Positions 2,088 to 7,548 of a stretch of 64,000 nucleotides of DNA are shown piece after piece (positions within the stretch are counted from its first letter, which is position 1; the number at the start of each line of letters is the position of its first letter). The DNA comes from Oscillospiraceae bacterium (GTDB lineage Bacteria; Bacillota; Clostridia; Oscillospirales; Oscillospiraceae), in assembly GCA_024697625.1 (NCBI GenBank), contig JAILFJ010000034.1, forward strand, positions 1 to 64,000. The letters run 5' to 3'. Below the pieces are notes generated by a model, which saw only the letters and a program-made list of their open reading frames with translations, was not told the DNA's origin and made no database searches. The position numbers and the translations under genes are program-made.

Positions 2088-4859
2088 ATGATGGTCAACA
2101 ACAGAATTCTGAAGAAACTGATTTCGTTGCTTCTTGCGACTGTGATGCTCGGATCTTCCTGTGGCGAAGCCGTTGCGGATCTGGTGCAGCTTCCCGATGA
2201 TTTGAACCGGGTAGAAGAGGAAGTGTTTTATCATGATATTTCTCTATATGAGGTGGAGATCCCCTATGGGGTTGAGTCTATCGACTCAAAGGCCTTCGCC
2301 TACAGTTCTGTGAAAAGGATCAGAATACCGGACTCCGTGATCTGGATTGCTGACGATGCCTTTGAGGGAGTGAGCGACCTTACCATCTGCTGCAGTGAAG
2401 ATTCCTGTGCAAAGGAGCTTGCGGACAGTCGGGACGACTATGTGTGGGAACAACTGGGCGGACAGTATCATACTGAATCACTGGAAGAGCTAATCAACGA
2501 AATTCTGGAAGGCGTGGACGAGGCACCGTTTATATCGGAAAGTGAACTTGATCTGTCGCATCTGTCGGAAGAAGGCATTACGGATCCGGAGACCCTGAAA
2601 GCGATCCGGGAATACAATGAACTTCAGGATGAGTTGGGCATTCTTGTTGCTGAGTACCGGGAAGATACCGATGGGATTATTTCGGCACTGACGGAAAGCG
2701 CGGGGATTATCGAATCGGTGAATGTTGAAGAGACGGAGCAGGGCTTTGTCCTGAGCACTGAGAACGGAAGCTTCAGCGTGACAGGAGACGGATTTGACGC
2801 GCTTGACGAAGACTTTGAAGTACTGTCATCTGCGGCAACAGAAGACGGCAGTCTGTTCATGGAAATACAGAGCGGTTCCGCGGTCCTCTACCTGACCCTG
2901 AACAGCTCCGGAATCATGCTGAGCAGGAGCATGCATGTTACGGCTTCCAGTCTTGACTATTCTGCAGCTTCGGTAATGGATGTACTGGGCAAGATCGATT
3001 TCAGCTGGCTGATCTCGACTGCACAGTATCTGGCGGAAACAATCAATTCTGCCGTATCCGACTTTAGTAAATGGGTCAATGAAGGAATAAAGAAGCTTGA
3101 AAAAGAGATTCCTTTAATGGAAGCCAAACTCAAAAAGCTGCAGATTCAGGGAGCGGTAGACCCGGATGGCCCATTTCATGACGCTCGCGTCAAGGCAAAC
3201 TCTGAGCTGGTTTTTGCACGGGGATCAATTAAAACGCTCAAAGGTGTCCGTGCCAAAATCGCACGCTTTACCATACCGGAGACCTGCAGGGAAATTTTGG
3301 ACAACACAGCCAAAATCAGAACATTAAGAGGAATCTCCGGTCACGGTCATCCGACGGAGACGGAGAAGACAGAGGACGCTCAGGCATTAGTGGATCAGTT
3401 AACCGCACTTCTCAATACGTCGTACATTCTGGTAACCTGGGATCTGGTTGACGGCACTGCTTCCATTATAATGGATATCTCGGCTGTTGCCGGGTTTGTT
3501 GCCGGTGTATGCGCGGGCGGACCGGTGGGAGCTGTTACGGCTGTTGCTGCCACGGCGGCTGTAAAGAAAGTCGCTGTGGGAGCTATCCGTAAGCTTGTGT
3601 TGGCGGTAATAGGCAATATTGTGCGCAATGTTGCTACAAATGTTGCGTATGACAAAACGGTCGCAGCGGATGACAGACTGCATTCCTGTATGATCAGCGG
3701 CACGGTGAAAGACAAGGAGACGGGCAATCCGCTGAAAAACGTAACGGTCAGCTGCGAAACCGGTCAGACAGTGACGAATGCCCAGGGGCAGTATTCTCTT
3801 TCTGTGCCGACAGAGATCAGGGCGTATACTCTGACCTTTGCTGCAAGAGGCTATGTCACACAGAAGCTCACGGCCAATGTGAACGGGCGACTCTCCCTGA
3901 CGCTGGATCCGGTAAGTATGGAGCAGGCGGTAACGACCGTAACCGGCACTGTAACGGACGCGGAAAGCGGAGCCGCGCTTCAGGGAGTTCTGGTAACAAT
4001 CGGCGATGAGTCCGCGTTCACTGACGCAGACGGTAAATACACGCTGACCGTACCTTTCGGCGAATATACGGCGCTGTTCTCACTGGACGGTTATCATACG
4101 CAGGCGGAGGAACTGACGCTGGATAAGCCGGGAACAGTGCAGTGCAATATAGAGCTTCAAAAAGGCGCGGATCTGCCGGAGCCGGTGGTGACAAGAGATG
4201 TCATTACCTTCGGACGCTATGAGCAGGACGGAAATCTGTCAAACGGGCCCGAAGCAATCGAGTGGCTTGTCCTTGCAAAGCAGGGAAGCAGGGCTCTTGT
4301 CGTTAGCAGATATGCGCTGGAATCAAAGGCATACAATGATGAGCGTGTTGATATCACCTGGGAGACCTGCACCCTGCGCAGCTGGCTCAACAGCACCTTC
4401 CTGAACACAGCTTTCACGGCTTCGGAACAGAGCAGAATCCCGACAGTGACTGTCGTTAACAATGATAATACCAAATTCGGCACGGAGGGGGGTAACAACA
4501 CACAGGACAAGGTGTTCCTCCTGAGCATATCCGAGGTGGAGCAGTATTTCAGTTCAGAGAGCAAACGGGTTTATGACAGCGAAGACCCGGATGATTACTG
4601 GGTGTATTGGCCGGACAGAATGTGCGCTCCGACCGCATATGTTTATACGCAATGGGGTTGCACGTCCTGGGAAGATTGGCTAAATAGTTGGTATGAGGGA
4701 AATACCGAAATATGGGGCTGCTGGTGGTGGCTCCGGTCGCCCGGTGGCGATCAGGATAGTGCCGCGGGTGTCGACGGCGGCGGCTACCTCGACGACTTCG
4801 GCGACTACGGCGACGGCGGCGGCGTGCGCCCTGCTTTGTGGATAAATCTTGCATCTTGA
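2088..4859 (+). CDS. DGR target protein: signal peptide, LRR_5 fragment, two carboxypeptidase-regulatory-like beta domains, C-terminal DUF6273/CLec-like domain containing the variable repeat
   Basis: Signal peptide MMVNNRILKKLISLLLATVMLGSSCGEAVA; ISGTVKDKETGNPLKNV and VTGTVTDAESGAALQGV repeats; VITFGRYEQDGNLSNGPEAIEWLVL...TWETCTLRSWLNSTFL is DUF6273-like; ends CWWWLRSPGG...GGVRPALWINLAS, homologous to the TR. Confidence 0.9.
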   Translation: MMVNNRILKKLISLLLATVMLGSSCGEAVADLVQLPDDLNRVEEEVFYHDISLYEVEIPYGVESIDSKAFAYSSVKRIRIPDSVIWIADDAFEGVSDLTICCSEDSCAKELADSRDDYVWEQLGGQYHTESLEELINEILEGVDEAPFISESELDLSHLSEEGITDPETLKAIREYNELQDELGILVAEYREDTDGIISALTESAGIIESVNVEETEQGFVLSTENGSFSVTGDGFDALDEDFEVLSSAATEDGSLFMEIQSGSAVLYLTLNSSGIMLSRSMHVTASSLDYSAASVMDVLGKIDFSWLISTAQYLAETINSAVSDFSKWVNEGIKKLEKEIPLMEAKLKKLQIQGAVDPDGPFHDARVKANSELVFARGSIKTLKGVRAKIARFTIPETCREILDNTAKIRTLRGISGHGHPTETEKTEDAQALVDQLTALLNTSYILVTWDLVDGTASIIMDISAVAGFVAGVCAGGPVGAVTAVAATAAVKKVAVGAIRKLVLAVIGNIVRNVATNVAYDKTVAADDRLHSCMISGTVKDKETGNPLKNVTVSCETGQTVTNAQGQYSLSVPTEIRAYTLTFAARGYVTQKLTANVNGRLSLTLDPVSMEQAVTTVTGTVTDAESGAALQGVLVTIGDESAFTDADGKYTLTVPFGEYTALFSLDGYHTQAEELTLDKPGTVQCNIELQKGADLPEPVVTRDVITFGRYEQDGNLSNGPEAIEWLVLAKQGSRALVVSRYALESKAYNDERVDITWETCTLRSWLNSTFLNTAFTASEQSRIPTVTVVNNDNTKFGTEGGNNTQDKVFLLSISEVEQYFSSESKRVYDSEDPDDYWVYWPDRMCAPTAYVYTQWGCTSWEDWLNSWYEGNTEIWGCWWWLRSPGGDQDSAAGVDGGGYLDDFGDYGDGGGVRPALWINLAS
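4718..4836 (+). repeat. DGR variable repeat (VR), 119 bp, 3' end of target CDS
   Basis: 28 bp identical 5' block (ctgctggtggtggctccggtcgcccggt) and 19 bp identical 3' block (ggcggcgtgcgccctgctt) shared with the TR; all substitutions between them fall at TR adenines. Confidence 0.95.
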
Positions 4860-5006
4860 TTCTTCAAATCTGTCATCGTCCACTTTAATCATCTAAAAAA
4901 GAAAAATTAACTCAAGGAAAGAATGTACAGCGAGGGCGGGAAGGAAAACAAATGCCGCCGTAAGGCGGCCGAAAAAATTTTGAAAAATCGAGGGTTGTTA
5001 AATTGT

Positions 5007-5420
5007 ATGGAAAAAAGGCAGAGCGAGCTGACTGTAATCACTAAGACAAAGGAACTGAGTTCCTATATAATTACGATAACACAGAGATCGCCGAAACAGT
5101 TTCGATTTACTTTCATCTCCAAAATGCAGAATCTGTGCCTTGACTGTATCGAGTGCCTTTATCGAGCCAATGACACCTACGTGGCGTTTGGAGACCAAAA
5201 AGCATGGGACACTCGGATAGACTATCAACATAAGGCGATGACCAGCCTAAAGCTTCTGGGTTATATCTCGCTCCTGGCAATGGAGAACAAGTGCATTCTC
5301 CCAAAACAGTATGAGCAGATCTCACGCATGTCTTCGGAATGCCGTAATCTGCTCGGCGGGTGGATGAACAGCGACAGAAGAAGATTTCAGCCTCGGCCGG
5401 GCTGCAGTCCGGGGATCTGA
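5007..5420 (+). CDS. avd: DGR accessory variability determinant, Avd-like four-helix bundle protein
   Basis: ELSSYIITITQRSPKQFRFTFISKMQNLCLDCIECLYRAND...YQHKAMTSLKLLGYISLLAMENKCILPKQYEQISRMSSECRNLLGGWMNSDRR resembles Avd/four-helix-bundle proteins; lies between target and TR. ATG 5007 preferred over the ORF-track start 4923. Confidence 0.85.
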   Translation: MEKRQSELTVITKTKELSSYIITITQRSPKQFRFTFISKMQNLCLDCIECLYRANDTYVAFGDQKAWDTRIDYQHKAMTSLKLLGYISLLAMENKCILPKQYEQISRMSSECRNLLGGWMNSDRRRFQPRPGCSPGI

Positions 5421-5433
5421 TTATAATACTGTC

Positions 5434-5558
5434 CTGCTGGTGGTGGCTCCGGTCGCCCGGTAACAATCAGAATAATGCCGCGAATGTCAACAACGACGGC
5501 AACCTCAACAACAACGGCAACAACGTCGACAACAACAACGGCGGCGTGCGCCCTGCTT
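5434..5558 (+). repeat. DGR template repeat (TR), 125 bp, rich in AAC/AAT codons
   Basis: 35 adenines, 16 AAY triplets in the central block; flanks identical to VR; non-coding position between avd and RT. Confidence 0.95.
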
Positions 5559-5764
5559 CGCTCCCATATGCCTGAAACCTGTCCGTAAGTACGGCGGTCT
5601 GTGCAGGGGAGCAAAGGAATCAGATTCCCTCCCGTTTATGCGGGAAAATACATGTCGGCAGATGGAACTTACGCTGCGGCTTTCGTTCCATAAGGTGAGT
5701 CAGGGAACTGTGCACGGTTTCCGCTCACCCTGCCGATGCGTTTTTCATTGGCTACGGTAAAAAG
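5559..5764 (+). ncRNA. Structured TR-RT spacer, probable part of the DGR template RNA
   Basis: Perfect helices: TCGGCAG 5655-5661 / CTGCCGA 5730-5736 enclosing TGGAAC 5663-5668 / GTTCCA 5685-5690 and GGTGAG 5694-5699 / CTCACC 5724-5729; also GGAAT/ATTCC 5617-5629 and TCCCG/CGGGA 5630-5645. Confidence 0.6.
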
Positions 5765-6838
5765 ATGACAATGTATTTCGAGAAAATCTACAATTTCCAG
5801 AACCTGTACCAGGCACACAGGGCTGCAAGGCTTGGAAAACAGCATACCCGCGAGGTTATCGAATTCGAGATGGATCTGGCAGGAAATCTGACCAGACTCT
5901 CCGATACTATTCGGGAAAAGAACTATCGAATGACAGACTACTACTCATTCTACGTCCGCGACCCGAAACTGAGGGAGATTCATGCGCTACATTATCCGGA
6001 TCGTGTTGTTCAGCACTGTATCTGCGATGAAGTACTGTGTCCGGTTCTGGATCCGAAGCTCATATACGACAATGCGTCATGTAGAACCGGTAAAGGCACT
6101 CATTTTGCGATTGACAGAGTTAGCGGATTCCTACGAGAATTCTATCGCCGAAACGGTACGGGGGGTTATTTCCTGAAGTGTGATATTCGGAAGTATTTTG
6201 ATAATGTGGATCATGATATCCTGAAATCGAGGCTTCGCCGGGTGTTCAGAGAACCGGAAATGATGGCGCTTCTGGAACAGGTTATCGACAGTTATGAAAC
6301 AGCACCGGGAAAAGGTCTGCCCTTGGGAAATCAGACCAGTCAGTGGTTTGCAATCCTGTATCTGGATTCACTTGATCGACTCGTGAAGGAGCGGCTACAG
6401 ATACGGTATTATTCCCGATACATGGACGACTGTATTCTGATCCACAGCGACAGAGATGTTCTTCGGAATTGTCTTAACAGAATGAATGAGCTGGTTCAGG
6501 AAAAACTGAAACTTGAGTTCAATGAGAAGACACAGATCTTTCCTCTGAGAAACGGAGTAAATTATCTGGGATGGCATTTTTATCTCACCGAGACAGGTAA
6601 GGTAATCCGAAAAGTCAGAAATCAGTCTAAGAGAAGATACAGAAACAAACTCAGGCTGATGCAGTATAAATATGCGGAAGGCAGTATGGAGCTGGACAGT
6701 ATAAAACAGGTTCTGACCAGCTATCACGCACATCTTTCACACGGTCACACCTATAAACTGCAGGAGCGGACACTTCAGGGATTTGTCCTCGCGAAGAGCA
6801 GGGATACTTGCCAGAAAGTGTTGTGTACTATCAATTGA
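5765..6838 (+). CDS. DGR reverse transcriptase
   Basis: Catalytic YMDD (YSRYMDDCILI), DGR-type GLPLGNQTSQWFA motif (SQ), KCDIRKYFDNVDHDIL, NYLGWHF; directly downstream of TR. Confidence 0.95.
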   Translation: MTMYFEKIYNFQNLYQAHRAARLGKQHTREVIEFEMDLAGNLTRLSDTIREKNYRMTDYYSFYVRDPKLREIHALHYPDRVVQHCICDEVLCPVLDPKLIYDNASCRTGKGTHFAIDRVSGFLREFYRRNGTGGYFLKCDIRKYFDNVDHDILKSRLRRVFREPEMMALLEQVIDSYETAPGKGLPLGNQTSQWFAILYLDSLDRLVKERLQIRYYSRYMDDCILIHSDRDVLRNCLNRMNELVQEKLKLEFNEKTQIFPLRNGVNYLGWHFYLTETGKVIRKVRNQSKRRYRNKLRLMQYKYAEGSMELDSIKQVLTSYHAHLSHGHTYKLQERTLQGFVLAKSRDTCQKVLCTIN

Positions 6839-6975: not shown

Positions 6976-7548
6976 ATGAAAAAACTGCTTGCAATGCTCC
7001 TGTTGTTATCTCTCGTGCTCAGCCTTGGTGTCACGGCTTTCGCGGAAGAGGGGAAGACAGAGACCAAAACCTGGAAGGACGAGAAGGGGGAGACGGTCAC
7101 AGAGGTCTATGACGAGGACGGGCGTCTGATTCACAGGGAGGAGCCCTATTACAAGAACGGAAAGAAATCCGGAACCCTGTGCTACGACTCGATCGTCTGG
7201 TGCAGCTGGTCCAATGACAAGTACACGACACAGGCCGCATGGACACTTCCGGTTCTGAAGCCGGATACGGAACTCAACCGATGCCTCTCTTATACGCTGA
7301 ATATGGCGTATTTCAAGATCGCGGACAGCAGAGAGCTCGGGACCCAGAACATATATGTGCGCGAGGACGGCATTTTCCGGAGAGCCGACTATCTGGATAT
7401 GGACGAGCTGGAGACTTTCTATGATATGGATTTCAAGTATGACAGTCCGAAAAAGGTGGACGGATTTGCGATCCAGCCCTACAGATACGTGAGCTCGGGC
7501 GACTTCAGCCTTGCCTGCGCGCTGACCGATGTCTATTATCTGAAGTGA
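6976..7548 (+). CDS. Small secreted protein of unknown function
   Basis: Signal peptide MKKLLAMLLLLSLVLSLGVTAFA; SD aaggaaggaag upstream. Confidence 0.7.
   Translation: MKKLLAMLLLLSLVLSLGVTAFAEEGKTETKTWKDEKGETVTEVYDEDGRLIHREEPYYKNGKKSGTLCYDSIVWCSWSNDKYTTQAAWTLPVLKPDTELNRCLSYTLNMAYFKIADSRELGTQNIYVREDGIFRRADYLDMDELETFYDMDFKYDSPKKVDGFAIQPYRYVSSGDFSLACALTDVYYLK

Follow-up and report, generated by a model that had tools for sequence, protein, structure and literature searches.

The mechanism of diversity-generating retroelements (DGRs) is taken here from PMC12875486. In the DGR of Bordetella phage BPP-1, the counterpart of the spacer between the template repeat (TR) and the reverse transcriptase (RT) gene recruits the RT-Avd complex, and the stem-loop that follows the variable repeat (VR) is not strictly required (PMC12875486). 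The targets of cellular DGRs are, as a general rule, exported and membrane-anchored (PMC8144416). DUF6273 has been published as a DGR target domain in phages (PMC11792537, PMC10743442), kinase-CLec targets with dispersed paralogs have been described in cyanobacteria (PMC7517822), and DGR-diversified antigen sensors have been reported from multicellular bacteria (PMC10907252). Because DUF6273 is already published in this role, the element described below belongs to a known DGR type; a literature search for DGRs together with DUF6273, which fell short of all journals, found only the two phage reports (PMC11792537, PMC10743442).

The element lies in a window of 64,000 nt (the whole stretch of DNA that was analysed), whose first base is also the first base of its contig. 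The source MAG measures 3.55 Mb in 181 contigs, with a completeness of 89% and a contamination of 3.2%. Positions 2088-6838 were confirmed to hold a complete, intact-looking DGR, in which target, avd, TR and RT follow one another on the + strand with chromosomal genes on either side. The four parts claimed in the earlier note, namely a target with a terminal repeat, an avd gene, an A-rich copy of the repeat and an RT, were all recovered where it had placed them and on the same strand. The features are as follows.

117 to 2054, + strand: upstream LRR_5 (BspA-type) protein (Pfam LRR_5, 3e-18), truncated 5' at the first base of the contig
2088 to 4859, + strand: DGR target, 923 aa (Pfam, hydropathy)
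4290 to 4847, + strand: DUF6273, candidate variable ligand-binding domain (Pfam PF19789, 9.3e-30)
4718 to 4836, + strand: VR, in the 3'-terminal part of the target ORF, with 22 substitutions and one 6-nt gap relative to the TR
5007 to 5420, + strand: avd, accessory variability determinant (PHROG 3206, Pfam bAvd)
5434 to 5558, + strand: TR, between avd and RT, 28% A
5559 to 5764, + strand: spacer RNA between TR and RT, with hairpins at ~5577-5598, 5616-5628 and 5631-5644
5765 to 6838, + strand: DGR reverse transcriptase, with YMDD at ~6419-6430 and GNQTSQ at ~6326-6343

The A-biased comparison of TR and VR that had been proposed earlier gave substitutions solely at TR adenines. In the adenine-aware alignment, 22 of ~33 aligned TR adenines are substituted, and none of the ~86 non-A positions is changed; when the alignment is made blind to base identity, the adenine bias persists (Fisher p = 9e-10). 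All 35 TR adenines occupy codon position 1 or 2 of the target frame, so that stop codons are unreachable by adenine mutation; 19 codons are variable and, as computed from the TR, ~10^20.6 protein variants are reachable. The repeats are just 106-125 bp long and diverge past GTGCGCCCTGCTT. Their 3' ends, the IMH/IMH* candidate, are GC-rich and identical over ~20 nt (GGCGGCGTGCGCCCTGCTT), with divergence thereafter. The VR lacks 6 nt of the TR (two codons, in frame), so that one or more indels must have arisen during or after the most recent homing. Adenine-biased TR/VR pairs also adjoin most relatives of this RT; the pairs of six close relatives that were tested carry 0-3 non-A changes each, and that of locus L053 carries 13 (of 90).

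The RT belongs to the Pfam family RVT_1, and its GNQTSQ motif, which accompanies YMDD, is of the GxxxSQ type and not the QGxxxS type of group II RTs. Its best PDB match is 8ub7 (E 9e-43), entered in the match table simply as 'Reverse transcriptase' and known as the solved BPP-1 DGR RT, and the best group II-type RT follows at 7.5e-18. An IQ-TREE phylogeny of 32 RTs, comprising DGR sequences including that of BPP-1 and three group II RTs, splits the DGR RTs from the three group II RTs with a support of 100/100. The earlier note had named a grouping with group II intron or retron RTs, or inactivating RT mutations together with an absence of A-site variation in the population, as findings that would speak against a DGR; in this tree of DGR and group II RTs the RT of the window falls with the DGR RTs, and its ORF is intact with the key motifs kept. 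That the RT and repeats are instead the remnant of a group II intron or retron beside a chance A-rich repeat is scarcely credible. The best NCBIfam hit of the RT is indeed group_II_RT_mat, at 106 bits and far under the cut-off of 300, but the tree, the PDB ranking, the GNQTSQ motif and the Avd match all point away from such a remnant, and the adenine-only substitutions, along with the avd gene, suffice to refute it. Within the DGR RTs, the RT of the window sits in a ten-member subclade (support 100/98) made up mostly of loci from bacterial MAGs, the sister clade of which holds the RTs of Faecalibacterium phage Lelie and phage nd12.

The avd gene product matches PHROG 3206, annotated as Avd protein of DGR (4e-24), and, just above the cut-off of 40, Pfam bAvd (40.6 bits); with NCBIfam NF033474 (Avd) it scores 53.4 bits, under the cut-off of 80. 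The Avd assignment made earlier is borne out by these family matches, with the start moved from the opening of the ORF at 4923 to the ATG at 5007, which is the likely start because the N-termini of relatives align there. The canonical target-avd-TR-RT reading of the locus is supported by this match together with the adenine-only TR/VR pair and the RT phylogeny.

In an alignment of TR-RT spacers, the three hairpins listed above are common to eight relatives. The first hairpin has a covariation score of 0.403, which is equalled in 1 of 500 shuffles and compares with 0.09-0.15 for slid versions; the structure so tested was drawn from the same sequences and is favoured over the slid versions by that origin. 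The alifold structure has 14 pairs in total, 7 of them with compensatory double changes. The spacer of the window scores 26 bits with Rfam RT-14, below the gathering threshold of 48.1, and that of the relative L079 gives a sub-threshold match to Rfam RT-2. No stem-loop was found 3' of the VR in the window (DNA folding z-score 0.76), nor 3' of a second VR in the same genome, described below; this is not disqualifying for a DGR, as the feature is neither universal nor defining.

The target protein contains an LRR_5 domain (aa 33-99), two CarboxypepD_reg-type stretches (best aa 617-691) and DUF6273 (aa 735-920) as identified by Pfam. Hydropathy analysis indicates a hydrophobic, signal-like N-terminus and a further hydrophobic stretch at aa 453-513, outside any assigned domain; because of the N-terminal segment, the protein is predicted to be secreted or surface-located. 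A search for pore-forming or other homology to aa 100-541 in 119 genomes gave one partial match (26%, query aa 17-214). The DUF6273 (PF19789) profile scores 104.2 bits against a gathering threshold of 23.5. Of the DUF6273/CLec-like target described earlier, the DUF6273 part is upheld by this match; a search of the PDB with an AF2 model did not return a C-type lectin fold. The model, covering aa 684-923, is of moderate quality (pLDDT 78, pTM 0.79) and matched no solved structure at E<=0.001; its fold matches are predicted viral models only, several of them named DUF6273. A C-type lectin fold of this domain may be supposed from the literature, where phage DUF6273 was assigned as CLec by DALI (PMC10743442).

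Among the genes tested on the downstream side are trpS, gltX, xseA and recN, which places the element in the chromosome and upholds the cellular, non-phage context claimed earlier. On the upstream side, the LRR ORF is open to base 1 of the window as read from the sequence, and possibly it is co-transcribed with the target, since the gap between them is 33 nt. A phage-borne DGR residing in a prophage, with a phage receptor-binding protein as its target, would account for the Lelie and nd12 RTs in the sister clade, for the targeting of DUF6273 in such phages (PMC11792537, PMC10743442) and for the matches of Avd, RT and DUF6273 to phage protein families. Such an origin is nonetheless very improbable and was already disfavoured: housekeeping genes adjoin the locus, the target has a signal-like N-terminus with LRR and CarboxypepD_reg stretches, and of the genes checked, none could be identified as coding for a tail or capsid protein. 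Among 102 congeneric genomes, RTs of this kind occur in the source genome alone, with a 35% match in a second genome; across the order, an RT match at E <= 1e-60 is present in 9 of 396 genomes. This patchy occurrence suggests that the DGR may have spread horizontally. In searches of plasmid and phage records, the only relatives to emerge were below 60% identity.

The preferred reading, to which a probability of roughly 0.93 is attached, is that of a cellular DGR that rewrites the C-terminal DUF6273 of an exported target. Avd and the RT would bind the avd-TR-spacer RNA, and the RT would copy the TR into cDNA, misincorporating opposite adenines. Through retrohoming, this cDNA would replace the VR at the target gene's 3' end, randomising up to 19 DUF6273 codons while the framework stays constant. 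The target would then be exported and its DUF6273 displayed outside the cell; because the domain would be both randomised and shown outside, the population could come to hold many binding specificities, the putative ligands being nearby cells, phages, host glycans or particles. Counting against this reading are the undetected post-VR stem-loop, the TR/VR indel and the failure of the PDB search to return a C-type lectin fold.

The same genome carries a second DGR. Contig C38 of the MAG holds a second avd, TR2 and RT2, the last 52% identical to the RT of the window (RT1), and the second VR lies on contig C166, where it differs at 19 of 33 TR2 adenines and at just 1 of the 86 remaining positions. 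The protein that bears this VR has a zinc-ribbon-like N-terminus, a Ser/Thr kinase (aa 45-272) and DUF6273 (aa 545-711); a strong predicted transmembrane segment begins at aa 403, between kinase and DUF6273, and the latter is predicted to lie outside the cell. C166 and C38 terminate in a 10-nt direct repeat (ATTATCCTAT) next to inverted ends that agree in 15 of 16 bases. By these signs an insertion element seems to lie 15 nt past the stop codon of the second target, parting it from its cassette. As RT1 and RT2 are not mutual nearest relatives in the tree, the two DGRs probably arrived separately. The closest relative of RT2 is L053, a member of the same subclade as the RT of the window; at least this one locus of the subclade, as judged by eye, adjoins a phage-tail-like ORF.

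The genome encodes 26 DUF6273 domains, compared with 0-5 in the other 101 congeners, and they co-occur with kinases and with LRR_5/DUF4132 proteins. The two current VRs are homogenised to their own TRs, with at most one non-A third position changed in each, whereas the other paralogs, when pooled, differ from the nearer TR at 56% of TR-adenine sites and, among non-A sites, at 33% of third and 14% of first and second codon positions. Because of this drift at non-A positions, neither TR1 nor TR2 has them as a target at present; they may once have been DGR targets, or ordinary selection may have diversified them. A genome-wide search for remote VRs of TR1 returned candidates on C87, C75, C56 and C11, with ~10-25% non-A changes in gap-aware alignment, and none of them is current. 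An origin of the DUF6273 contigs in contamination of the MAG is not favoured, their tetranucleotide correlation with the window being 0.89-0.95 as against 0.37-0.78 for other genomes.

These figures also bear on a DGR that was recently active and is now silent, for example untranscribed or blocked in homing by the TR/VR indel. The 6-nt difference between TR and VR, the lack of a detected post-VR stem-loop and the decaying pair of L053, the closest relative of RT2 (13/90 non-A changes), would fit an element of that kind. It is rendered improbable by the complete conservation of the ~86 non-A positions and by the intact RT and avd ORFs with their key motifs, set against the 33% reached at non-A third positions by drifted paralogs in the same genome.

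Beyond the cellular DGR itself, all tested targets in the RT subclade of the window carry DUF6273, with fusion partners that include SIR2_2 (L054), LRR_5 (L056), Stig1-like (L052) and TIR (L053, a drifted pair). It is conceivable, if on balance doubtful, that this subclade, known mostly from bacterial MAGs, is specialised for the diversification of DUF6273 sensors, which would be swapped between surface adhesins and effectors of immune or signalling type (membrane Ser/Thr kinase, SIR2, TIR); the 26 domains of this genome would then be current and retired hypermutated receptors, serving anticipatory recognition in a probably gut-dwelling bacterium.

The window thus presents a well-preserved cellular DGR, kin to gut-phage DGRs, in a bacterial chromosome and with a target predicted to be exported. 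Less expected are the second DGR with its membrane-kinase target, the 26-domain DUF6273 family and the SIR2- and TIR-DUF6273 fusions in the subclade. The second DGR corresponds to a receptor kinase whose predicted outer face is rewritten, and with either target one could ask directly which ligands such hypervariable sensors recognise. The remaining 24 DUF6273 domains show third-position drift, yet differ from the TRs at the same adenine sites; they could be used to date their exit from DGR control, if they were ever under it.

Compared with the BPP-1 DGR (Mtd/Avd/TR/bRT), the element shares the target-avd-TR-RT order, a homologous RT, the Avd family and adenine-specific TR/VR differences. It differs in being chromosomal, in its target, which in place of Mtd is an LRR protein that carries DUF6273 and is predicted to be exported, and in a VR that lacks a detected stem-loop. 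The Faecalibacterium prophage and nd4/nd12 targets (PMC11792537, PMC10743442) likewise have their VR in DUF6273, and their RTs are the nearest phage RTs in the tree, but those targets are phage structural or receptor-binding proteins, whereas the window element is cellular and falls in a separate RT subclade (100/98). The second DGR resembles the cyanobacterial kinase-CLec targets (PMC7517822) in its combination of a Ser/Thr kinase with a C-terminal variable domain and in belonging to a paralog family of which only some members are diversified. It comes from a genome that is not cyanobacterial, and its predicted transmembrane segment would put DUF6273 on the outer side of the membrane, whereas the cyanobacterial proteins are mostly predicted to be cytosolic. 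The antigen sensors of conflict systems (PMC10907252) are similar in that variable domains are fused to immune-type effectors such as TIR. Those sensors belong to RT clade 5 and come mostly from multicellular bacteria; among the related loci of the DUF6273 subclade, L054 has SIR2, L053 a drifted TIR and the second DGR a membrane kinase.

The MAG that holds the window (G000) carries a second DGR, and effector-DUF6273 fusions occur at related loci:

G000:C38 (locus L087) and G000:C166 (L088:12243-14396), second DGR
L053:614-3199, TIR-DUF6273 protein adjoining a DGR RT of the window RT's subclade
L054:2784-4430, SIR2_2-DUF6273 protein, likewise adjoining an RT of that subclade
window 6976-7548, a 190-aa protein, small and predicted to be secreted, shortly 3' of the RT, with no family matches over the cut-off

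The VR of the second DGR sits within a zinc-ribbon/Ser-Thr kinase/transmembrane/DUF6273 protein. This locus appears to be divided between C38 and C166 by an insertion element, apparently located 15 nt past the target's stop codon and accompanied by a 10-nt target-site duplication. A further 24 DUF6273 domains, in kinase-DUF6273, LRR_5/DUF4132-DUF6273 and other architectures, are found in G000 (contigs C88, C11, C166, C87, C75, C56, C39, C97, C154 and C14); congeners have 0-5 domains of this kind each. The TR-like segments of these 24 domains depart from TR1/TR2 mostly at TR-adenine sites, and their third positions have likewise drifted.

Among the related loci, the SIR2_2-DUF6273 protein contains an adenine-specific VR, and the TR/VR pair of the TIR-DUF6273 protein is drifted. 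A phage-tail-like ORF lies close by at L053. In another relative, L061, a 581-aa ORF (L061:1621-3366) is placed between the TR and the RT, which is seemingly split in two ORFs.

The TR-RT spacer of the window (5559-5764) weakly matches Rfam RT-14, and that of the relative L079 (L079:6304-6475) weakly matches RT-2, so DGR spacer RNAs may be what certain of the "RT-n RNA" families in Rfam represent.
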